From contig JAUJMU010000006.1 of NCBI GenBank assembly GCA_030446715.1, positions 124,001-188,000 of the forward strand: a stretch of 64,000 bases of DNA, read 5' to 3'. A model generated the notes under the pieces. The model saw only the letters and a program-made list of their open reading frames with translations, was not told the DNA's origin and did not search any database. Below, in pieces: positions 3,732 through 51,466 of the stretch (positions are counted from its first letter, which is position 1; each line of letters begins with the position of its first letter). The stretch is from Cytophagales bacterium (GTDB taxonomy: Bacteria > Bacteroidota > Bacteroidia > Cytophagales > 172606-1). The position numbers and the translations under genes are program-made.

Positions 3732-5657
3732 TCAAAACGGCTCAAAAACTGTCAGGTAAGGCGTAGTCATCACCGGTCTGTACCGTATCTCTCCCAGTGT
3801 GATCTGCCTGGTATGCCCGTGCACATTTGCGTCCACCAGTATACAATCAGGTTGAAAAAGTTTTTCTTTTACAATCTTCCCCGACGGGTTGTCTACCAGT
3901 ATATGTTCAATACGGTAAGGACTTTTTTGGTTTACTTCTATCAAAGACCATATGGGATACTCCCAGGTATCTTCGCCAAACAGCAGCCCGATTTTACGAC
4001 AGTTTTTTTGTACAATATATTCTTTCACTCCCTCAAATGAGTGCGCTATCTCCGGGCGGTTGGCAAACAGAAGGCTGTTTCCGGTTCGGTTGAAGATACT
4101 CCGGCTGGCAGGGAGCAACGGACGGCTTTCGTTGAGAAGCAATGCAGGCAAAGCTGCCAGGAATAATACCACCAAGGCACTGCTTACCACTTTTCGTCCT
4201 GCCATGGACAGCAGCAATATGCAGTAAGGGGCCAACAGCACAAAAATTGGCAAATGGAGGCGGGGTGCCCAGATCTGCCAACGCAGGTAGAAACAATAGA
4301 GCAGAAAGGATAGCAGGACCAGTCCTCCATATACCTTCGTAAGGGCAGGAACCCTTTGCCAGCGAAAAATCAATATCAATGTACACCCCATCGCCAGTAT
4401 AGTGTGGAAGAAATTTCCAATGTAATCTTCGTGATTACCAAATACCTGCTTGAATTCCAGTTCGCCGGCAAGGGTGGTGCGCGGATCATGAATATCCAGA
4501 CCTAAAGAGCGGTGCAGTTGCAGAGTAGGCCGGCGAAGCAACTGCTGCCAGTAATAATGATTCAGGCCCGGAGGGGCTTCCAGATGCAGGACAAGATTCC
4601 GGCTCACGTTTGAAAGCAGTACCCGCGGCGAAAATTCCGCATTTGAATACTTAGCCCTTTCTTCGGCAGTCCCGCCCAAAGGATGTCCATATACGGATAT
4701 ATTCCGGTAGTAATGCCCGGCATTCAGTACCAATGCAATCACAGCCATTGCTATTGAAGTTCTGACGAGTTTGGCTGACAGCCCTTCCCTTTTCAGAACA
4801 ATAAAGGCAAACCATAGCAGCCACGGAAAAACAAAGAGGTAAGCCGTTCCCTTGGTAAGAATGGCAAGACCCAGACTCAGGCCGGCAAAGCAAAAATTTT
4901 CTGAAGAAAGCTTCTCTCTCAGCCTCAGCAGCCAATACACAAAGCTCACCACAAAAAAAGAGACTACCAGGTCATTCTGCGTGCTGGATGCCTGCAGAAT
5001 CCCCATCGGCAGCGTAGCCACGAATACGACGGAGGCAATCTGATAAAAGGAATTTCCCCCCAGTTGCCTCGTTATTAAGGAGACTCCAACCATACACCCC
5101 ATCCATGCTCCCCACTGCACCAGATTTGCGTAACGGTCACCTCCCGAAAGGATCTGCAGGTGCAGGATAACCATCTCGGCAAAGGGAGGCTGGTAATGCT
5201 GCCGCGTGATATGGGATAGGTAATGCGCCAGATGCCCGTTCTGGATCCAGTGCACCACCCGCGCCATGTGGTAAGTCTGGGAATCCCAGTTGTTGGGAGG
5301 AGAAAGAAGGCCTACGATCAGGGGTATGAACAGTATAAATCCTACCAGCAGTAAAAACAGATGACCGGGAGTTCTTAGTTTTATCTCCGGCAAATTGACA
5401 GAAATAAATTTCCTTCTTTTGTAAATCAATCCGGATAGCAGAAGTGTAATCAATAACCATGCAATGGACAGGCTTACCTCGTTGACAATGGAAAGTGCAC
5501 TCAATCCTTCGGTGACCACTGCAAGTAAGGCACCAAAGAGAAATATTCCCTTTAACAACCCATCCCGGCTTGACGACCATTCTCCTGCAGCAGATTTATA
5601 AGTCTGTACAGCAAGGCATGAAAGCAGAAAAGCCGGCAACAAGAATAGGATCAACAT
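3732..5657 (-). CDS. GT-C / ArnT-PMT-like integral membrane glycosyltransferase
   Basis: A 641-residue protein with about ten or more hydrophobic segments from the N terminus on, and a soluble C-terminal tail of roughly 130 residues. Near residues 115-165 it has NNWDSQTYHMARVVHWIQNG followed by QPPFAEMVILHLQ. The acidic residue in the first periplasmic loop and this tyrosine/histidine-rich block are the hallmark of GT-C enzymes that use polyprenyl-phosphate sugars. It probably transfers a lipid-linked sugar on the outer face of the cytoplasmic membrane. It sits between GT genes in one orientation, with about 50 bp to the upstream gene. Family membership is clear; substrate is not. Confidence 0.8.
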   Translation of the reverse strand: MLILFLLPAFLLSCLAVQTYKSAAGEWSSSRDGLLKGIFLFGALLAVVTEGLSALSIVNEVSLSIAWLLITLLLSGLIYKRRKFISVNLPEIKLRTPGHLFLLLVGFILFIPLIVGLLSPPNNWDSQTYHMARVVHWIQNGHLAHYLSHITRQHYQPPFAEMVILHLQILSGGDRYANLVQWGAWMGCMVGVSLITRQLGGNSFYQIASVVFVATLPMGILQASSTQNDLVVSFFVVSFVYWLLRLREKLSSENFCFAGLSLGLAILTKGTAYLFVFPWLLWFAFIVLKREGLSAKLVRTSIAMAVIALVLNAGHYYRNISVYGHPLGGTAEERAKYSNAEFSPRVLLSNVSRNLVLHLEAPPGLNHYYWQQLLRRPTLQLHRSLGLDIHDPRTTLAGELEFKQVFGNHEDYIGNFFHTILAMGCTLILIFRWQRVPALTKVYGGLVLLSFLLYCFYLRWQIWAPRLHLPIFVLLAPYCILLLSMAGRKVVSSALVVLFLAALPALLLNESRPLLPASRSIFNRTGNSLLFANRPEIAHSFEGVKEYIVQKNCRKIGLLFGEDTWEYPIWSLIEVNQKSPYRIEHILVDNPSGKIVKEKLFQPDCILVDANVHGHTRQITLGEIRYRPVMTTPYLTVFEPF

Positions 5658-5705
5658 TCTGATAATGTTTGAAGAGAGGTGTTCAGCCAGCCGGAAAAGA
5701 CAGTT

Positions 5706-7004
5706 CTATCCGGCTAGTACGTTTTGATATATTGAAATATAAGCACCTGCCTGGACAATGGGGCTATACCGGGATCTGGCTGCTGACGCAATCTCCTCCC
5801 GGCTGAAAGTGACCTCTCCATTGACAAAAGCATTAATTGCAGCAGCCAGCGCTTCAGGTTCAGTTTTATCCACCAGAAGCCCATTGCTTCCAGACTGAAT
5901 CATGTCTGGTATTCCGCCCACTGTAAATCCGATCACCGGAGTGCCACAGGCCAGAGATTCCAAAACTACATTCGGGAGATTATCTTCCCTCGAAGGTATC
6001 ACGAAAGCATCCGCAGCATTGTATACAATACTCATCAGCCTCTCATCCTGAACTTTGCCAAGAGAAACATATTCGGCTCCCAAATCAGGAAGGGTGGCAT
6101 CTGTTTCCCCTACCGAACAAATAACCAGATCCCGCCCCCCCCCCGGTATGCTCAGACTCTTCAGCAACAGATCAAATCCTTTTCTGGTATTATTTAACTG
6201 GGAGCTTACAAAAAGCAATATTTTCTTGTCCATGGGCAGTGACAAAACCTGCCGGCAAGCCTTTTTCTCCAACGGTGTGAAAATTTCCGTCGGCAGGCTG
6301 TAGGGAATCGTGCAATGGGGCAGATGCCCAAAAAGTTTACTTGCTGAAGAACAACTGCTTAACCAACGGGAAGGTGTAACAATGGTTTTCAGACCATTTG
6401 GTTTCTCTAAAACCTTCATTTTTAAGGCCAGCGAAGTCTCTGCCTGATCAGGTAAATCTGAATCGCTTATTTGGGGACAGTTCTGGCAAGCCTCCCGATG
6501 TCGGTGGCATCCGGCAGAATAATGACAACCTCCCGTAAATGCATTCATATCATGCAGCGTCCATACAATCTTCTGCCCTGAGGTTGTCTCAAAAAAGGAA
6601 GGAAAATCCAGAAAATCAGAAACCCAGTGAAGATTGACAATATCTGCCTGCCTGACGAGCGGATGATCCCCTATTTGCCTGTATTTTGAATCTGGAAAAG
6701 AAAAGTACTCAAAATGACAGCGCACTGTATCTGCCAGTTTTTTTCTCTGTGCCTTTAACCGGAGCTGGGCCTGTACTTCTCTCTTTGCACTGCCTGTTAT
6801 GCGTTGCCAAACCTTGTCGGAAAAACTCAGTGGCGGAAGGTTTGTATTTTCAAAGTAAGGAAAATGCTGGGGTATGGCACCGGTCGGGGTTGAGAGGGTC
6901 AGCAGCGATGATTCGATTCCCTGTTCCAACAATGCCTCATGCAAACGAACGCAGGCTTTTGCCGCTCCCCCCTGTTCCCAGGTTGTCAAATGAACTACTT
7001 TCAT
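5706..7004 (-). CDS. family 4 glycosyltransferase
   Basis: This is a 432-residue GT-B enzyme. The N-terminal domain begins MKVVHLTTWEQGGAAKACVRL, the glycine-rich acceptor loop of GT4. A cysteine-rich stretch, GGCHYSAGCHRHREACQNCP, at about residues 157-177 is common in the WcaC-like subgroup (fucose/colanic-type transferases). The catalytic E-x7-E region reads SREDNLPNVVLESLACGTP followed by VGGIPDMI near residues 340-370. Its ATG at 7004 overlaps the stop of the upstream methyltransferase by 4 bases (ATGA), so translation is likely coupled. Cytoplasmic; donor sugar unknown. Confidence 0.9.
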   Translation of the reverse strand: MKVVHLTTWEQGGAAKACVRLHEALLEQGIESSLLTLSTPTGAIPQHFPYFENTNLPPLSFSDKVWQRITGSAKREVQAQLRLKAQRKKLADTVRCHFEYFSFPDSKYRQIGDHPLVRQADIVNLHWVSDFLDFPSFFETTSGQKIVWTLHDMNAFTGGCHYSAGCHRHREACQNCPQISDSDLPDQAETSLALKMKVLEKPNGLKTIVTPSRWLSSCSSASKLFGHLPHCTIPYSLPTEIFTPLEKKACRQVLSLPMDKKILLFVSSQLNNTRKGFDLLLKSLSIPGGGRDLVICSVGETDATLPDLGAEYVSLGKVQDERLMSIVYNAADAFVIPSREDNLPNVVLESLACGTPVIGFTVGGIPDMIQSGSNGLLVDKTEPEALAAAINAFVNGEVTFSREEIASAARSRYSPIVQAGAYISIYQNVLAG

Positions 7005-44000: not shown

Positions 44001-44900
44001 TCACAACTTGTCGGAAAAGGGAATAGGATTATTCTCAAAGACCTGATTCCAGACCTTCTCAATCCAGGATTTGGCGAAAGAGAGCTTCTTGGCGCAGGCT
44101 TCAAAAGCGGTCTGAATCAAGCGTTCAAGTTGTTTGAGGTCTTCAACGGTGCCGGCCTCACTAATGGCTTTCTTGATTTGTTTCCAGATTCTTTCAATGG
44201 GGTTGAGGTTAGGCGAGTAAGGAGGCAAGTTCACCAGTACGATCTGTAAGTCTCTTGCCGTCTGTTCTACCAAGGGAGTCAGATGGGCTTTGTGATTGTC
44301 CCAAATGAGAATAATGGTTTGGGCCTTCGGGTTAGCCTCCCGGATCAAAGTGAGCATTTTGACCATCGTCTCCTGATTGCCTTTGCCAATGCTACTGATG
44401 ATACTATTGCCCTTCAAAGCATAGAAACCAAAACTGTTGCGTCTCTTTTTATCCGTGTTGACCTTTTTGATCACTCCTTTCTTTGTGGACCAGAGCCGGG
44501 CAGAATTTGAATGCAATTGAGGAGAAGTTTCATCGGCAAACCCGATACACAGCTTGTCGGGGTCTTTGCCTTTCAGGCCTAATGCATCGGCTACGGCTCT
44601 TAAGCGTTCTTTGAGCTTTTCATCGGCCTTGTCGGGCTGACGAAAGTCTCGGGGCTGGGGCTTATAACAATACAGGCCCGATTGCCTTAAGATGCGCTGC
44701 AGCTGCCGCTTACCGTAGCTCACCCCGTAGTGGGCTTTGACCAGATTGCGTACTTGCCCCACACTCCAGTAATCCTTCTGGTCCAACGTCTGCTTTAACT
44801 CCTGTTTCTGCTCTTTGGTTAAGCGCGCTTTTAAGCCCCCGCCTTTGCCCTGATGGTTCTCTAAGCCAGTCTCTTTTTTTCGTTCCAGTCCTTTACCCAG
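44001..44900 (-). CDS. IS630-family transposase, copy 1 (DDE part intact)
   Basis: Frame 44001-44786 (at least 261 residues, open further to about 44880) reads YWSVGQVRNLVKAHYGVSY (helix-turn-helix, winged part), LCIGFADETSPQLHSNSARLW (first catalytic Asp), IILIWDNHKAHLTPLV (second Asp) and LPPYSPNLNPIERIWKQIKK (catalytic Glu). This is the DDE_3/IS630 pattern. The N-terminal helix-turn-helix lies in another frame above an A7 run at about 44875-44881 (GLENHQGKGGGLKAR versus VKDWNEKK). IS630 elements often use a frameshift between two ORFs, but a base-calling slip is equally possible. It may be an active or recently active transposase. Confidence 0.82.
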   Translation of the reverse strand: MGKGLERKKETGLENHQGKGGGLKARLTKEQKQELKQTLDQKDYWSVGQVRNLVKAHYGVSYGKRQLQRILRQSGLYCYKPQPRDFRQPDKADEKLKERLRAVADALGLKGKDPDKLCIGFADETSPQLHSNSARLWSTKKGVIKKVNTDKKRRNSFGFYALKGNSIISSIGKGNQETMVKMLTLIREANPKAQTIILIWDNHKAHLTPLVEQTARDLQIVLVNLPPYSPNLNPIERIWKQIKKAISEAGTVEDLKQLERLIQTAFEACAKKLSFAKSWIEKVWNQVFENNPIPFSDKL

Positions 44901-44974
44901 TCATAGAGCGTACTTTTACCAGAGCATTCCCTGAAAGCCGATTGAATCAAGTATTCCAGGTGTTTTACGTGTTC

Positions 44975-45900
44975 AATAAGGTCGGCCCTCACTGATGGTT
45001 TTTTGATTTGCTTCCAGATTCTTTCAATCGGGTTGAGATCAGGTGAGTAAGGGGCAGGTTCACCAGTACGATCTGGAGGTCTTTGGCTGTCTGTTCGACC
45101 AGCGGAGTCAGGTAAGGGCCGGGTGGTTATCCTAGATCATGAGGATGATGGTCTGTGGCTCTGGGCTGGCCTCCCGGATCAAAGTGAGCATTTTGACAAT
45201 GTCTCCTGGTTGCCTTTGCCCATACTGGCAATGACACTCGTGCCCTGAGAGCATAGAAGCCAAAGCTGTTTTGCTTCTTTTATCGGTATTGACCTTTTTG
45301 ATCACCCCTTTCCTTGTCGACCAGAGCCGGGCAGAATTTGAATGAATCTGAGGCGAGCTTTCATCGGCAAAGCCAATGGAAAGCTGCCTAAATCCCCTTG
45401 CCTTTGAGGCCTGATGCATCGGCAACGGCTGTAATCGTTCTTTGAGTTTCTCGTCGGCTTTCCGGGGCTGACGAAAGTCCCGGGCTGGGGCTTATAGCCA
45501 TACAAGCCTGACTTTGCCTCAGGATGCCCTGCATCTGCCGCGGCCCGTAGCTCACTCCGTATATGCGCTTTTGACCAGATTGCGTACCTGCCCTGCCGTC
45601 CGGGAGTCCTCCTGGCCGAGCCTCTGCTTTAACGCCTGCTTCTGCTCTTTATTCAGCGCGCTTTGGCTCCCGCCTTGCCCCTGTTGGTTGTCTGAGCCAG
45701 TCTCTTTTTTCATTCCAGTCCTTTACCCAACCATAGAGTGTACCAGGCTTACCCCGCTTATAGCCGATACACTCTCAGACTTTGTCCCGACTCAACCAGC
45801 TTCAACACTAGCCCCTTGAAATCCTCACTGTGACTTGCTCCAAACGATTTTACAAACCGCTCCAGCCGGGCCGGCTCATCTATAGCTATTTTTTTCATCG
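44975..45900 (-). pseudogene. IS630-family transposase, copy 2 (degraded)
   Basis: The sequence follows copy 1 closely but with many one-base losses. Recognisable pieces are SIGFADESSPQIHSNSARLW with KKVNTDK, PEPQTIILMI and, at the start of the frame in plus coordinates, the 'PFERIWKQIKK' region cut off at about 44975. The C-terminal end and left inverted repeat are missing. Parts such as the helix-turn-helix (near 45560-45640 and 45690-45790) are present in broken frames. It is not expected to encode a working protein. Confidence 0.75.
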
Positions 45901-45968: not shown

Positions 45969-46228
45969 ATGTACAATTCAAAGCTGTGGAAGGCGCCTTG
46001 CAGAAAGCCATTTATGTGGTACTCGATGATACCCTGCGAAAAGACCTAGCCCAGAAAATTGTGAAGGTAGCCGTAGCCTGTCCGGGTAATTGCGGGCAGG
46101 AAGATAAGATAGAATACATCCGCACGGAGTTTCCCAGGCTGGAATTAAAGAATATTGCCCAGGTGATCTCCCAGCTCCAAGCCATTGAAGAGAACTTAGC
46201 CAAAAATAATGAGTCTTTGGAGGAATAA
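45969..46228 (+). pseudogene. 3' fragment of an unrecognised gene cut by IS630
   Basis: A plus-strand frame continues through the IS630 right end and then gives about 85 residues: FKAVEGALQKAIYVVLDDTL, LRKDLAQKIVKVAVACPGNC, IRTEFPRLELKNIAQVISQL, ending NNESLEE. Composition and length look like the C-terminal part of a real protein rather than noise, but I do not recognise the family. The upstream part is missing, so no start codon belongs to it. It lies 120 bp before the metal ATPase operon. Confidence 0.5.
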
Positions 46229-46347
46229 TTTTTCAAGTAGGCCTTGGCAAACACCCCCCTGCTGCTTCATCTTTGGGAAAACTACCCCTAGTGCTTACCT
46301 GCTTGTGAGTGCCAGGTAAGGTGATTGCTACCTATAGCTAAAAATAT

Positions 46348-48744
46348 ATGGCAACAGAAACGGTTCAAATGAAAGTATCGGGGCTCATGTGCTCCTTCTG
46401 CACGATGAGTGTGGAAACGGCCCTGAAGCGTTACCCCGGCGTTAAAAGCGTGCTGGTGAATCTCGTGCATGGCATCGTTCTCGTGGAAGCCGATACCAGG
46501 CAGATCAATCGCGAGCAGCTGGCGGAAGCCGTAGAAAAACTTGGGTATAGTGTCTCAGCCACTCAGGTGCAGCAATACAAGGCGGATGAGGATTTATTTA
46601 CTGTAATCAAGCAACGGGGTACCATAGGAATGGTACTCTCCATCCTGGATTTGCTTATTGATCCCATCAACCTGTTTGCCTTGCCTGCCCACTACCGGGC
46701 CTGGTTCAGTTTCGCAGTAGCCGTGGTTGTTCTCCTGTGGGTAGGATACCCCGTTTTGCGTAAAACATGGATGGCTGTTAGCCAACGCGTAATTAATGCC
46801 AATGTCCTTTTATCTGCCGGTGCCTGGGGTTCTTTTATCGTGGGCACTTTATCTCTTTTCAATCCCGGCTGGCCAAATTTCTTGCCCGTAGCGGCCTGGC
46901 TAATGTCCTTGCACCTCTTCTTTGCTTATTTCAAATTAGATACGCGAAAAAAAGCTTCGGAAGCAGTACGGAAGCTTCTGTCGCTGCAACCGCCAAAGGC
47001 ACGAGTACTGAGGGGAAACGAGACCGTGGAGGTATTAACCAGAGATATTACCATCGGCGAAGTGGTGGAAGTGCGGCCCGGAGAAAGATTACCCTTGGAC
47101 GGAGAAGTGATCTCAGGGGCAGCCAGTGTGGATGAATCCAGTTTTACGGGGGAGTCCGTACCGGTGACCAAGGAAGCGGGAGATAAGGTAACCGGCGGAA
47201 CGATGAATTTAGACGGTGCCCTTCAGGTCCGGGTGACCAAAATCGGGGAAGACGGCTTTCTAAGTCAGATCGTCAGGCTTATGAGTACAATTGCCGAACG
47301 CAAACCGCCCATTGAGCTCCTGGCGGATCGCTTGATGAACTATTACGGTCCGGTGGTTTTCATCATCGCCGGTCTTGCTTTTACGGCATGGGCCCTTTTG
47401 ACTGGTGACTTCACAAAGGCTACACTAGCGCTCATTACTACTATCATTATGGGGTACCCTTGTGCCTTGGGCATCACTACCCCGATGCTGGCTGCCATTG
47501 CCGGGGGTAAAGGTATTTCTATTGGCCTATTGGTAAAGGCAAGCGAGGTGTTTCATGGCCTCTCTATTGTGGATACGGTAGTTTTTGATAAGACTGGCAC
47601 GCTTACCTACGGCAAACCAACGGTGACTGATCTGGAAACCTTTGGCCTCCCAAAGCATCAAATGCTCTCCTTGCTGGCAGCTATCGAACGCCAATCCGAG
47701 CATCCTATCGGACAAGCCATTTCGTTTTATGCCCAGCGGGAAGGAGCCGGCAATTGGGAAGTGGAAAATTTTCGGGCCATTCCTGGTAAAGGAGTCACGG
47801 CGACTTATCAAGGGGAACTGGTATTGGCAGGTAAGCGCTCCTTTCTTGAGGAAAGAGGCGTATCGCTTTCACAGGCCGCCAAGAGTGGGCTAATTCGTTT
47901 AAGTGCCGAAGGGAAAACCGTCATCGGATTAGCCCTGGGGACAAAGATAGTGGGTATTGTAGGGCTCCAGGATACCCCGCGGCAGGGAGCGGCTCAGGCC
48001 ATTAAAAAGCTAACCCATCGAGGCATTCACACGGTCATGCTGACCGGCGATGCCCTTCCGGTAGCGACTGCTATTGCCGGGCAACTGGGCCTGGGAGAGG
48101 TAAAGGCGGAACTGCTGCCAACCGACAAAGTAGCGGCCATTGAATCCCTGCAGAAAAACGGGAGAAAGGTAGCAATGGTAGGAGATGGCATCAATGATGC
48201 GCCTGCACTTGCCCAATCCGATGTGGGTATTGCCATCGGCGCTGGCACTGATGTAGCCATTGAATCAGCGGGGGTAATCTTAATCGGCGATAAGCTGATG
48301 GATGTGGTGAACGCCTTGATTCTGGGTAAAGCGTCTTACCGCACCATGACCGGAAACGTACTCGTAGCGGTACTCTTTAATATCGTGGGAATGGCCCTGG
48401 CGGCAATGGGCTTTATTACACCCCTGCTGGCCATTGCGGTGATGATTGTGAGCATTTTTGCCATTCTGGTCAATACGCTTCGCATTCGCTCCCTCCGGCT
48501 TGAGCAGGCGGAGGAGAAAATAACCGGTCCCCTGGCTCAGGTGGAATTCAGCGTACCCAATATGGTTTGTGAGGGGTGTGCCGGCAAAATCTCTACTACC
48601 TTAAAAGGGCTCAACGGCGTACAGGAAGTAAAGCCTAAAGTTGCGCAAAAGCAGGTGTACGTGCGTTATGAGCCGGCTAAAGTGAAGCAGCAACAGATGA
48701 AGGAAGCGCTTACCGCCTCTGGGTTTACAGCCATGGAAGCTTAA
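46348..48744 (+). CDS. heavy-metal P1B-type ATPase with N- and C-terminal HMA domains and YPC motif
   Basis: 798 residues. N-terminal HMA domain with KVSGLMCSFCTMSVETAL (C-x-x-C), about 6-7 membrane segments, SSFTGESVPVTKE (actuator TGE), IIMGYPCALGITTPMLAA in the transport segment, VVFDKTGTLTYGKP (phosphorylated Asp), RQSEHPIGQA (HP), VAMVGDGINDAPALAQSDVG, and a second HMA domain at the C terminus (VPNMVCEGCAGKI). The ion-binding segment has Tyr-Pro-Cys instead of Cys-Pro-Cys. A C-terminal HMA is rare. With the HMA lipoprotein and CcdA/ArsG-like permease that follow, it forms a metal-handling operon; copper, silver, mercury or another soft metal is possible. Confidence 0.9.
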   Translation: MATETVQMKVSGLMCSFCTMSVETALKRYPGVKSVLVNLVHGIVLVEADTRQINREQLAEAVEKLGYSVSATQVQQYKADEDLFTVIKQRGTIGMVLSILDLLIDPINLFALPAHYRAWFSFAVAVVVLLWVGYPVLRKTWMAVSQRVINANVLLSAGAWGSFIVGTLSLFNPGWPNFLPVAAWLMSLHLFFAYFKLDTRKKASEAVRKLLSLQPPKARVLRGNETVEVLTRDITIGEVVEVRPGERLPLDGEVISGAASVDESSFTGESVPVTKEAGDKVTGGTMNLDGALQVRVTKIGEDGFLSQIVRLMSTIAERKPPIELLADRLMNYYGPVVFIIAGLAFTAWALLTGDFTKATLALITTIIMGYPCALGITTPMLAAIAGGKGISIGLLVKASEVFHGLSIVDTVVFDKTGTLTYGKPTVTDLETFGLPKHQMLSLLAAIERQSEHPIGQAISFYAQREGAGNWEVENFRAIPGKGVTATYQGELVLAGKRSFLEERGVSLSQAAKSGLIRLSAEGKTVIGLALGTKIVGIVGLQDTPRQGAAQAIKKLTHRGIHTVMLTGDALPVATAIAGQLGLGEVKAELLPTDKVAAIESLQKNGRKVAMVGDGINDAPALAQSDVGIAIGAGTDVAIESAGVILIGDKLMDVVNALILGKASYRTMTGNVLVAVLFNIVGMALAAMGFITPLLAIAVMIVSIFAILVNTLRIRSLRLEQAEEKITGPLAQVEFSVPNMVCEGCAGKISTTLKGLNGVQEVKPKVAQKQVYVRYEPAKVKQQQMKEALTASGFTAMEA

Positions 48745-48813
48745 ATGAAGATCAAAGCGAAAGAAGCTACTCGAAACACCTATAATCCACTAAACTTTAA
48801 AAGTAAAAAAGGT

Positions 48814-49185
48814 ATGAAAGCAATCCATGAATTCAGCGTAAAGGGTATGCCAAAATTGCTGCTTCTGTTTTCTCTTTCCGTTGTAGGCCTCATTACTCCT
48901 TCCTGCGGGCAGGATACCAAAAAAGAAGCACAAGGAGTGGCCAGGGAAGCATCCCTGAAAAAGGTGACAGTGCCCGTAGAAGGCATGTCCTGTAGTTCCT
49001 GTGTTTCCACGGTAAAGAAAACAGTGAAAGCCTTGAATGGGGTACAAAACGTTGAGGTTAGTCTCGAAAAACGGGAAGCGACCATTACCTTTACTGACGA
49101 AAAAATATCCACCGGGCAAATCAGTAAGGCGATCAGCGATAAAGGCTATAAGACCGGGAAAGCCGCGGAAGTAAAGAGCTTATAA
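48814..49185 (+). CDS. HMA-domain lipoprotein (MerP-like)
   Basis: About 123 residues from ATG 48814, chosen because AAAAAAGGT precedes it and the signal peptide starts there; an in-frame ATG at 48745 would add 23 residues. LLLLFSLSVVGLITPSC is a lipoprotein signal with a lipobox Cys, then a linker (KKEAQGVAREASLKK), then an HMA domain with VEGMSCSSCVSTVKKTVKAL (C-x-x-C). It should be anchored in a periplasm-facing membrane and pass a metal ion to a transporter. It overlaps the next gene's ATG by one base (TAATG). Confidence 0.85.
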   Translation: MKAIHEFSVKGMPKLLLLFSLSVVGLITPSCGQDTKKEAQGVAREASLKKVTVPVEGMSCSSCVSTVKKTVKALNGVQNVEVSLEKREATITFTDEKISTGQISKAISDKGYKTGKAAEVKSL

Positions 49186-49877
49186 TGACGCTTGAAGAGT
49201 TTTTTCACAGTTTTGGTTCAAGTCTCTCGGAAGGCTCCTTGCTGGCCCTGGGCACCGCTCTACTGGCTGGTATAGTGGCCAGTGCGGTTTGCCCTTGCAC
49301 CTTGCCGGTAGGACTAGGGATGGCAGGTCTGGCAAGCACCAGCGCGCAAGGAAATACCACCCGGCAGGGAATGAGCATTGCCTTAGCTTTTTTTGCCGGC
49401 ATTGCAGTAAACCTGACGCTGCTGGGCGCCCTGGCCGGTAGACTGGGAGCTATCCTGACCGAATCCTTTGGCCGCTACTGGGCGTTAGGCATGGCCCTTT
49501 TTTCTCTGCTGGCCGCCATACTGGCCTTTTATGGTCCTCGCTTGCAAGAGACCCAGTTGGATGCCCTGCGCAAGCCCGGCATTGGTGGGGCATTTTCGTA
49601 CGGTTTTATCTTTAGCCTGGGCACCTCGGCAGCCCCGCTCCTGCTATTACTTTCGGTAGCCGCCGCGACAAAGAGCCCGCTTTATGGATTGCTGCTGGCC
49701 CTCACTTTTGGGATTGGCCGGGGGCTGCCCTTTCTCATCGTCGGTCTATTTGCCGGGGCTGTTTCGCGCCTGGCCAGGCTCACCTGGCTCCGGCGAAGCA
49801 TTCAACTGGTGAGTGGTTGTGCCCTTTTGTTCGTCTGCTACTATTACGTTCGCACCTTTCTTAATTTAATGGCTTAA
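49185..49877 (+). CDS. CcdA/DsbD-like permease (ArsG-family-like)
   Basis: A 230-residue membrane protein with about six hydrophobic helices. GIVASAVCPCTLPVGLGMAG carries a C-P-C in the first helix, and SLGTSAAPLLLLLSVAA a second conserved helix; the 'xPCxLP' and 'GTSAAPLLL' patterns are those of the DsbD/CcdA superfamily, including ArsG-type and mercury-linked permeases. Translation is coupled to the HMA lipoprotein gene. It may take electrons or a metal ion from the HMA proteins; which one is not clear from sequence. Confidence 0.8.
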   Translation: MTLEEFFHSFGSSLSEGSLLALGTALLAGIVASAVCPCTLPVGLGMAGLASTSAQGNTTRQGMSIALAFFAGIAVNLTLLGALAGRLGAILTESFGRYWALGMALFSLLAAILAFYGPRLQETQLDALRKPGIGGAFSYGFIFSLGTSAAPLLLLLSVAAATKSPLYGLLLALTFGIGRGLPFLIVGLFAGAVSRLARLTWLRRSIQLVSGCALLFVCYYYVRTFLNLMA

Positions 49878-50135: not shown

Positions 50136-50641
50136 TTAAAAGTGTTCCCGAACGTATTGCTCAACCTCCTGGACGGTTTCCCGGGCACTTCGTTCTACGC
50201 CAATTAAGGTCGCGGAAGCAAAGCTGGTCCAGTTGCCATAGCCGACTATCCAGAGCCCGGCCGCTTTCAGGGCGCGGGTTCCGGAGGTGGCTACTTTTCC
50301 ATCTGGTTCCACTACCCCAAGTGGTTGCAGATGATCCAGGGCGGCCCGGAAACCAGTACACCAGATCACTGCATCTACCGGCGTTTCCTGCCCATCGGGC
50401 CAAACCACGCCAGCAGCCGTGAACCGCGGAAAAGGGCCGACGCTCCGCAGTACGCCCCGCTTCCGCGCTTCTTTGACCGGCGGTACCATAACAATGTCTC
50501 CCAGCTTGCCTTGTGGTGCGGTCCCTTTTCCGGCCTGCTGGGACAGGTAGTGCTGCGTAGCCGCCGCGAACAGATACCGGCCGTCTACTCGTCGGGCAGG
50601 AAAGTGGGCACTGTGGGCGTTACCCAGGTAACCGTGTACGT
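50136..50641 (-). pseudogene. ArsO-like flavin monooxygenase, 3' part, cut by IS and frameshifted
   Basis: The minus-strand frame 50136-50489 (from [15 protein letters not shown]) and its upstream continuation read [62 protein letters not shown] and [20 protein letters not shown]. The W-C-T-G-F and the SATLIGV blocks are characteristic of the C-terminal half of ArsO-type FAD monooxygenases. Above it a frame slip (GAG-GTA read as GAGTA near 50588) changes the frame from VTWVT...FLPDE. The N-terminal FAD-binding half is missing because the IS3-type element inserted at 50642. Confidence 0.75.
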
Positions 50642-50960
50642 TGTCAAATAAAAGTGGACAACTGAAGGGGTATGGGAAGGAGCGGATTCATGGGTTTTGG
50701 AGTTGCTGGCCAATATAACTTCTTTTTCTTCTTTTGGTGATGGTAAGGTCTTTGATTTTTCTCTTTGCCGGAGTTTCTCGCTTTCGGCCAAAGAATACAT
50801 CAGCCAGGGTCAGGTTGTCAAGCGACTCGTGATAAGGATGGTGGTTGTAATACTCCACCCATTGGCCGATACGCTGCTCCAGTTCCTGAGGCAGGTAGCA
50901 GAATTCCAATAGCAGAAGATTCTTCATGGAAGGGTGGTAACGTTCGGTCTTGCCCTGGGT

Positions 50961-50991
50961 GGACCTCACACGTTCAGCATGACCGGCTACC
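50961..50991. repeat. ~30-bp insert, copy 4 (one end diverged)
   Basis: 31 bp starting GGACCTCACACGTTCAGCAT and ending GACCGGCTACC, so only one end is GGACC. It lies in OrfB between HHP and TQGKTERYH (minus strand); two bases are replaced. The internal CAGCAT is shared with copies 5, 6 and 9. Confidence 0.65.
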
Positions 50992-51064
50992 TGGGATGAT
51001 GGGGCGCACAACGGGTGTGACGGATGTTTTGCTCCTTGAAGTACTCCTTCAAATATCTGGACAC

Positions 51065-51094
51065 GGACCAGCAGAAGATGTCAGCATCGGGTCC
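51065..51094. repeat. ~30-bp GGACC...GGTCC insert, copy 5
   Basis: 30 bp, GGACCAGCAGAAGATGTCAG... ending CATCGGGTCC, with a GATG...CATC inner dyad. It lies in OrfB between LTDNGSA and VSRYLKE. It differs at one base from the reverse complement of copy 9. Confidence 0.75.
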
Positions 51095-51199
51095 AGGCTG
51101 AGCCGTTATCGGTAAGTACCCCTGGTCTTTGCTCTTTTGGCAAGCCTGCTGCCTGCATGGCTTTCTCAAGTGTACGTTCGGCATCCACTGCCTGCATGA

Positions 51200-51219
51200 A
51201 TGGAGCAGCTTCGCTCCAT
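51200..51219. repeat. 20-bp perfect hairpin (7-6-7) inside OrfB
   Basis: ATGGAGC-agcttc-GCTCCAT. Removing exactly these 20 bases gives an in-frame join WNCVLMQAVDAERT on the minus strand, which suits IS3 OrfB between its first and second catalytic Asp. Confidence 0.6.
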
Positions 51220-51255
51220 GAACACAGTTCCACGACAAGATGTAGCGGGAGTAGT

Positions 51256-51285
51256 GGACCCGATGCTCACGCGTGGCAGGTGTCC
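51256..51285. repeat. ~30-bp insert, copy 6
   Basis: 30 bp, GGACCCGATGCTCACGCGTG... ending CAGGTGTCC, with a central CACGCGTG palindrome. It lies in OrfB between STVMD and YSRYILSWN (minus strand). Confidence 0.72.
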
Positions 51286-51466
51286 GTCCATCACAGTAGA
51301 TAAATAATACCAGCCCCAGCCCTGAATCTTAAAGCAGGTAAAATCAGTTTGCCAGAGTTGGTGAACAGCCGTAGCTGGATTGGCAAAATGATCTGCTGCT
51401 TCAATCAACTTGTAAGCTGGGGTAGTGATCAGGCCCCTGTTTTCAAAATGCGGTAAACTGAAGACT

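Follow-up and report, generated by a model that had tools for sequence, protein, structure and literature searches.

A conserved YPC subgroup of P1B-ATPases with a rebuilt copper path, represented by an operon of a Cytophagales bacterium, and its possible link to mercury

The assignment of metals to P1B-ATPases rests on membrane motifs, and a group of pumps from many phyla that reads YPC in the sixth transmembrane helix (TM6) and keeps half of the copper site may be misnamed as copper pumps. In the P1B-1 copper ATPases, CPC in TM6 is accompanied by what we take to be the further motifs of the class, YN in TM7 and MxxSS in TM8, and we likewise assume that M148, E205, C382, Y688 and S721 of LpCopA, among other residues, are positions of the copper path. 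ZntA-type pumps are also P1B-ATPases, and a P-type route for mercury is already part of the name of their NCBIfam model (zinc, cadmium, mercury and lead). The mer transport genes (MerP, MerT, MerC and MerTP) couple an outside HMA protein with a membrane protein that has a cysteine pair in its first part. A metagenomic CopA-like protein, CopAL6, is described as having an HMA domain at each end, with YPC in TM6 (PMC11082258). Here, we describe a three-gene operon in which an ATPase of the same build, going by the published description of CopAL6, precedes an HMA lipoprotein and a CcdA-like permease (Table 1). It lies in a 64,000-nucleotide stretch of a Cytophagales bacterium (GenBank assembly GCA_030446715.1, contig JAUJMU010000006.1, positions 124,001 to 188,000 of the forward strand), the whole of which we call the window. 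The ATPase falls in a conserved subgroup whose copper path appears rebuilt, and our preferred reading, tentative and held with less than even confidence, is that horizontal transfer brought in the operon as a soft-metal module centered on this distinct YPC subgroup, most likely for mercury as a Hg(II) thiol adduct or an organomercurial.

All of these elements, the P1B-ATPase with YPC and an HMA domain at each end, the HMA lipoprotein and the CcdA-like permease, were found in the positions that a preliminary description of the window had given them. The ATPase has the marks of a P1B heavy-metal ATPase, with 519 bits against the heavy-metal P-ATPase model TIGR01525 (cut-off, 346.25), DKTGT at residues 414 to 418, a proline motif in TM6 and two HMA stretches that are also given by Pfam. 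Its TM6 departs from the CPC of the P1B-1 copper class, and TM7 and TM8 have FN and MxxSI in place of YN and MxxSS. With the ZntA-type model it reaches 397.8 bits, far under the cut-off of 1005. A sequencing error or local oddity does not account for the YPC, as the same reading is present in six plasmid relatives and in a copy from a Planctomycetales metagenome-assembled genome (MAG). The AlphaFold model of the ATPase (mean predicted local distance difference test score [pLDDT] of 74.2) has a normal P1B fold, with copper pumps as the nearest solved folds, and this predicted structure leaves the choice of metal undecided.

The comparison of the YPC pumps with the copper pumps was made on 32 YPC and 109 CPC rows, assigned to their classes by the TM6 motif itself. 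Several rows had been dropped beforehand: second copies of the window locus, L137, L138, L149, L150, L003 and L165; two near-copies of L130, namely, the YPC rows from L131 and L132; and rows with a core of fewer than 560 residues, including the truncated L160. In LpCopA numbering, position 148 is M in 109 of 109 CPC rows and Q (26 rows) or A (6 rows) in the YPC pumps, and position 205 is E in all 109 CPC rows and S (24), A (2) or K (6) in the YPC rows. Tyrosine 688 is present in all CPC rows and replaced by F in 32 of 32 YPC rows, while S721, found in 108 of the 109 CPC rows, is V, I or L in 32 of 32. At position 382, C in 109/109 CPC rows stands against Y in 32/32 YPC rows, where the Y is there by construction of the class. 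Besides the defining tyrosine, four more copper-path positions are thus altered in every YPC row, and the corresponding window residues, hand-counted from the alignment, are A151, K196, Y370, F677 and I703 (for M148, E205, C382, Y688 and S721). The YPC pumps share with LpCopA, Archaeoglobus fulgidus CopA and Escherichia coli CopA the fold, the domains, DKTGT and C384, N689, M717 and S720, all four retained in 32/32 rows, along with D337 in 31/32. They differ from them also in the N-terminal HMA motif, which is CS[FL]C in 31/32 YPC rows (the exception, L133, has a short N-terminus) and in 0/109 CPC rows. As judged from this alignment, a conserved YPC subgroup with a seemingly rebuilt copper path is shown. 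The preliminary description had called the C-terminal HMA domain unusual, and so it is, though not unique, since a C-terminal CxxC occurs in the six window-type rows (the window included), in 13 of the 109 CPC rows and in one archaeal YPC ATPase, and CopAL6 has such a domain as well.

The same division appears in the trees. In a tree of 145 rows, the Shimodaira-Hasegawa-like approximate likelihood ratio test (SH-aLRT) gave 97 for the branch of the 32 YPC rows, 98 for that of the 109 CPC rows and 100 for the four Cd/Zn-type rows, which have a branch of their own. With the motif masked, two smaller trees (47 or 49 rows) gave 90 and 93 for the YPC branch and 99 for the CPC branch. None of the three trees nests the YPC ATPases in the CPC copper pumps, so the earlier suggestion that YPC marks something distinct gains ground, and the clear grouping with CPC copper ATPases against which it had been set was not seen. 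A masked-motif alternative that puts the window subclade next to the CPC pumps was not rejected (p = 0.396 in the approximately unbiased test). By these trees, the window pump is placed outside the CPC copper pumps, and a single origin of the YPC ATPases is favored, not proven. The stem of the window subclade is long (2.21 in the 145-row tree).

The link to mercury comes from the neighborhoods of the YPC pumps. MerA, called with a curated model and its cut-off, was found in 8 of 12 YPC genomes (the window's own not being one of the eight) versus 5 of 50 CPC genomes, and in 14 of 23 YPC plasmid records versus 0 of 4 CPC records, where 50 of the 71 CPC loci had been given to the CPC genome search and at most 25 candidates were scored per CPC genome while nearly all were scored in the YPC and plasmid search. 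In the single-scan comparison, the figures were 6/9 YPC and 5/50 CPC genomes (Fisher p = 7e-4). With distance queries for mer and CcdA that were drawn from YPC loci, and with three of the 14 YPC genome loci short-flanked on at least one side (L040, L192 and L200), mer genes lay within 5.5 kb at 5/14 YPC and 1/92 CPC genome loci (p = 1e-4) and at 12/23 YPC and 0/4 CPC plasmid loci, and a CcdA-like gene lay within the same distance at 10/14 versus 2/92 genome loci and 12/23 versus 0/4 plasmid loci. By our own reading of the annotation tables, mer genes are named at 17, copper genes at 9 and arsenic genes at 6 of the 23 YPC plasmid loci, compared to 0, 3 and 0 of the four CPC plasmid stretches. 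Within the samples taken, YPC loci show more mer and CcdA neighbors than CPC loci do.

Single loci illustrate this arrangement. In Adhaeribacter, ArsR-MerTP-GDCCVxC stands immediately 5' of CsoR-ATPase-HMA-CcdA, and in Methylobacterium, the order is MerR-ATPase-HMA-CcdA-HMA-MFS (major facilitator superfamily), with merT, merF, merA and merB 6 to 9 kb downstream. Of the three Manganitrophus plasmids, two have a MerR gene annotated directly 5' of the ATPase, and a promoter with a 20-bp spacer lies ahead of the MerR gene or ATPase in all three. In the haloarchaeal plasmids, merA is near a wHTH-ATPase-HMA set (wHTH, winged helix-turn-helix) at four of six loci, adjoining the wHTH gene in two and two genes off in the other two; no merA is annotated near the Halorarius and Halorussus loci. 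The window's genome has MerTP on another contig (252.2 bits; cut-off, 180). Its contig C13 (L151, 18313 to 19501) carries an ArsR-MerTP-GDCCVxC set near metal-efflux genes and a CPC ATPase. Beside the YPC ATPase of L046, positions 5175 to 5864 code, by eye, for a fusion of a thioredoxin-like domain with a MerR-like regulator.

Several points weigh against the mercury reading, among them the unequal search depth and the origin of the queries given above. Our first count, of merA within 6 kb on genome contigs, gave 1/9 YPC and 1/71 CPC loci and was not significant; the later counts, for which the flanks were longer, and the genome-level search for MerA supplement this result without replacing it. 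No MerA over the cut-off of 454.45 was found in the window's genome, where the best candidates reached 369.5 and 352 bits. The YPC plasmid loci are multi-metal islands, and several of them are near-kin (the three Manganitrophus loci and five of the six haloarchaeal loci). The truncated ATPase of L160 abuts a Tn3-type mer element and the mer operon of L142 adjoins a recombinase; the mer genes of both loci may be chance neighbors from a nearby transposon. The Manganitrophus regulator clears the MerR cut-off by 1 bit (151.8 versus 150.85), and merA is annotated whole in one of the three plasmids and in pieces in two. The window ATPase passes the cut-off of the NCBIfam copper ATPase model TIGR01511 (427.4 bits; cut-off, 397).

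A Cu(I)/Ag(I) pump whose affinity or speed has changed, its mer neighbors merely reflecting multi-metal islands, is a substantial though doubtful possibility. Copper pumps are the nearest known kin of the window ATPase by model, sequence and fold, the YPC pumps keep C384, N689 and M717, and copper genes are named at the nine plasmid loci counted above. Two YPC sequences from Thermoproteota, both found later, bear on this question. L194, which we assume to be Sulfolobales-like, has GYPCA and MACSFC, keeps the TM7 tyrosine, has no C-terminal HMA domain, ends a branch of 3.26, has merA 4.7 kb from its YPC ATPase and matches the YPC site pattern in part, while L192 matches it in full by eye. The CopA of Sulfolobus solfataricus, whose copper function was verified, is stated to be YPC in the accessible part of a 2015 paper (PMC4541151), which keeps copper a serious rival and counts against mercury. 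It shares YPC with L194, which, with its retained tyrosine, long branch and nearby merA, may not represent the other YPC rows. CopAL6 speaks for both sides: as an isolated gene in an E. coli strain without copA, it led to the highest copper accumulation, so that the protein may bind or move copper, but it lowered copper resistance rather than restoring it (PMC11082258). The four replaced positions besides the motif, altered in all 32 rows, count against the copper reading.

The regulators of the subfamily also argue against copper. The copper ligands of CsoR, which we take to be Cys-His-Cys, are all three replaced in the intact CsoR-like repressors of L128 and L129 (Adhaeribacter and Hymenobacter), which have CPGDC in a C-terminal extension. 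A fragment of such a gene, overlooked in the preliminary description, lies upstream of the window ATPase and aligns with the intact genes of L128 (40% identity) and L129; its last two ligands are replaced and the first falls in the missing part. Regulators of this kind may sense another thiophilic metal or thiol stress. The intact genes (L128, 11570 to 11935; L129, 11139 to 11531) possibly represent a new type of sensor.

The two genes downstream of the ATPase have features of both mer and CcdA systems. The lipoprotein frame has a lipobox-like LITPSCG by eye and abuts the ATPase from its first ATG, while the inner ATG would give about the length of the L128 relative; the product scores 55.4 bits with the MerP model TIGR02052, under the cut-off of 92.55. 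The permease frame (230 residues) overlaps the lipoprotein frame by one base and reaches 47.5 bits with DsbD_TM (PF02683; cut-off, 27.1). The pair resembles the mer transport genes in its outside HMA protein and in the paired cysteines in the first part of its membrane protein, but the permease is of the DsbD_TM family, the HMA protein is under the MerP cut-off and the operon contains no MerA. The accessible part of a tabulation of actinomycete mercury genes names CcdA-region proteins as mercury transporters and lists a P-type cation ATPase of Nocardia, with no TM6 motifs given there (PMC12195606). No sequence match to the permease was found among solved structures up to E 0.1, and its AlphaFold model (mean pLDDT, 52.7) was not used. 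The ArsG-like label that the preliminary description also gave the permease, at which no test was aimed, gains no support from these data.

CcdA presumably has one redox cysteine in each half. The window permease shares PF02683 with it and differs in that both motif cysteines are in one half, and the same first-half CPC is found in all seven window-type permeases, with TSAAP or TSVAP at the second-half motif in the three that were aligned. Extra cysteines are also present. The Hymenobacter permeases have a third one in the first half, and in the window and MAG permeases the last helix region contributes one or two more, two in the case of the window. Seven other permeases near YPC pumps have CPxC in the second half, and most of the remaining ones have one cysteine per half. 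On plasmids, the CPC-type (P0003-type) permease occurs in four records, each with a YPC ATPase. Since two permease kinds near YPC pumps have their cysteine pair united, a MerT/MerC-like metal path is suggested over a transmembrane disulfide relay, and for the window permease we infer from the cysteine positions that such a path fits better than CcdA redox transfer. The metal-reduction route raised in the preliminary description finds no support in this permease, as both motif cysteines are in the first half and the second-half CcdA cysteine motif is gone. A thiol-redox module, in which the CcdA-like protein would pass reductant across the membrane and the HMA cysteines of the lipoprotein would stay reduced, is in our view unlikely: the DsbD_TM domain, the pairing of CcdA with a thioredoxin-like gene at five main-clade plasmid loci, the one cysteine per half in several CcdAs near other YPC pumps and the two last-helix cysteines of the window permease all leave room for it, but the united first-half cysteines of the window-type permeases and the lost second-half motif speak against it, and the window operon has no thioredoxin gene. 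CcdA-like genes with CPxCTP in the second half, with MerR and thioredoxin-like genes as neighbors, lie at L084 (9603 to 10298), L140 (13502 to 14200), L142 (12553 to 13380) and L143 (12749 to 13441).

Returning to the preferred soft-metal module, we infer mercury as the substrate, export as the direction and a MerT-like role for the permease. The cytosolic HMA domains of the ATPase would collect the metal, and the pump would carry it across the inner membrane, probably outward; a lone membrane cysteine would suit a cation that comes with its thiol or carbon ligand in place. The lipoprotein HMA domain would receive the metal, or hand it over, on the far side, and the permease, with a first-half CPC replacing the split CcdA pair, could form a MerT/MerC-like path between the lipoprotein and the cytosolic HMA domains. 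A wider claim, more speculative and at best a doubtful possibility, is that the YPC P1B-ATPases are separate primary mercury pumps, perhaps for methylmercury or Hg-thiol adducts, that the CcdA-like protein of the CPC type represents a new mercury permease class, and that the two are a dedicated ATP-driven arm of mercury resistance beside reduction by MerA, spread through bacteria and archaea on metal islands. The rebuilt half of the copper site is alike in bacteria and archaea, and the YPC group often travels with mer genes. If this holds, a dedicated ATP-driven step would be added to resistance by reduction and volatilization, and a mercury pump of this kind would offer a direct test of how one cysteine and a tyrosine set the choice of metal. 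Literature searches by term, with most subscription journals outside their coverage, found no paper that links YPC ATPases with mercury, and the accessible parts of PMC3600143 and PMC6391923 have nothing on a YPC pump.

YPC ATPases span several bacterial phyla and archaea. The closest copies of the window ATPase are six plasmid-borne relatives (69 to 79% identical) in Adhaeribacter, Hymenobacter and "Candidatus Manganitrophus" and, at 74% identity, the Planctomycetales MAG copy, which lies on a 5.4-kb contig. The best match in another genome is about 38% identical (59 genomes, including the window's own, at E up to 1e-100). The YPC DNA pattern was found in 2 of 395 Bacteroidota genomes, one being the window's own, and in 2 of 398 Pseudomonadota genomes, one being the Rhizobium genome at the sample center; a scan of 250 Thermoproteota genomes gave four matches, of which two were non-ATPases. 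The nearest copies on plasmids and a MAG contig, together with the insertion sequence (IS) remnants at the flanks, point to horizontal acquisition of the operon. That it is a decayed island without function is quite improbable, for although the repressor is truncated, degenerate transposases lie on both sides and a flavoprotein-like fragment follows, the three operon frames are open with catalytic and metal motifs intact and one plasmid copy shares 79% identity with the ATPase.

Table 1. Features of the operon and its flanks (positions in the window)
Feature	Position	Strand	Basis or remark
YPC-type P1B-ATPase	46348..48744	+	798 residues; open reading frame, Pfam, NCBIfam, trees
ATPase N-terminal HMA domain, MCSFC	46369..46548	+	Domain search
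YPC of TM6 (Y370-P371-C372), within MGYPCALGI	47455..47463	+	Motif search
ATPase C-terminal HMA domain, MVCEGC	48547..48726	+	Domain search
Lipoprotein with one HMA domain (MSCSSC)	48745..49185	+	HMA at 48967-49152; start perhaps 48814
CcdA-like (DsbD_TM) permease, VCPCTLP (C36, C38)	49185..49877	+	Pfam, cysteine positions
CsoR-like repressor, 3' remnant	45971..46228	+	PF02583 19.6 bits, below cut-off of 22.8; without CsoR N-terminal part; CPGNCG in C-terminal extension
Inverted repeat CTTACCTG-N11-CAGGTAAG	46294..46320		Perfect 8-bp arms, 11-bp spacer, 5' of ATPase; candidate operator, perhaps due to chance
Degenerate DDE_3 (IS630-like) transposase remnants	44001..45819	-	Beside broken repressor; DDE_3 76.8 bits for 44001-44786
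Degenerate rve (IS3-like) transposase remnants	50688..51408	-	Downstream; rve_3 26.5 bits (at cut-off of 26.5), rve 27.4 bits (below 32.6)

With its repressor gene cut short next to IS remnants, the operon may be under poor control or expressed constitutively. Of random 123-bp stretches taken from the window, 4% contain an 8-bp repeat of the kind found ahead of the ATPase, and as a conserved operator this repeat was rejected, being absent from the examined stretches of L040, L128, L129, L131 and L133. Among the IS630-like remnants, the piece at 45132 to 45425 has no Pfam match and resembles the DDE_3 remnant by eye. Between the operon and the IS3-like remnants, a fragment at 50136 to 50489 looks by eye like the C-terminal part of a flavin oxidoreductase and has no Pfam match. 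Farther upstream, positions 1 to 32400 of the window hold a long surface-polysaccharide cluster, mostly on the minus strand, with glycosyltransferases and NeuB-like and cytidylyltransferase-like genes recognized by eye.

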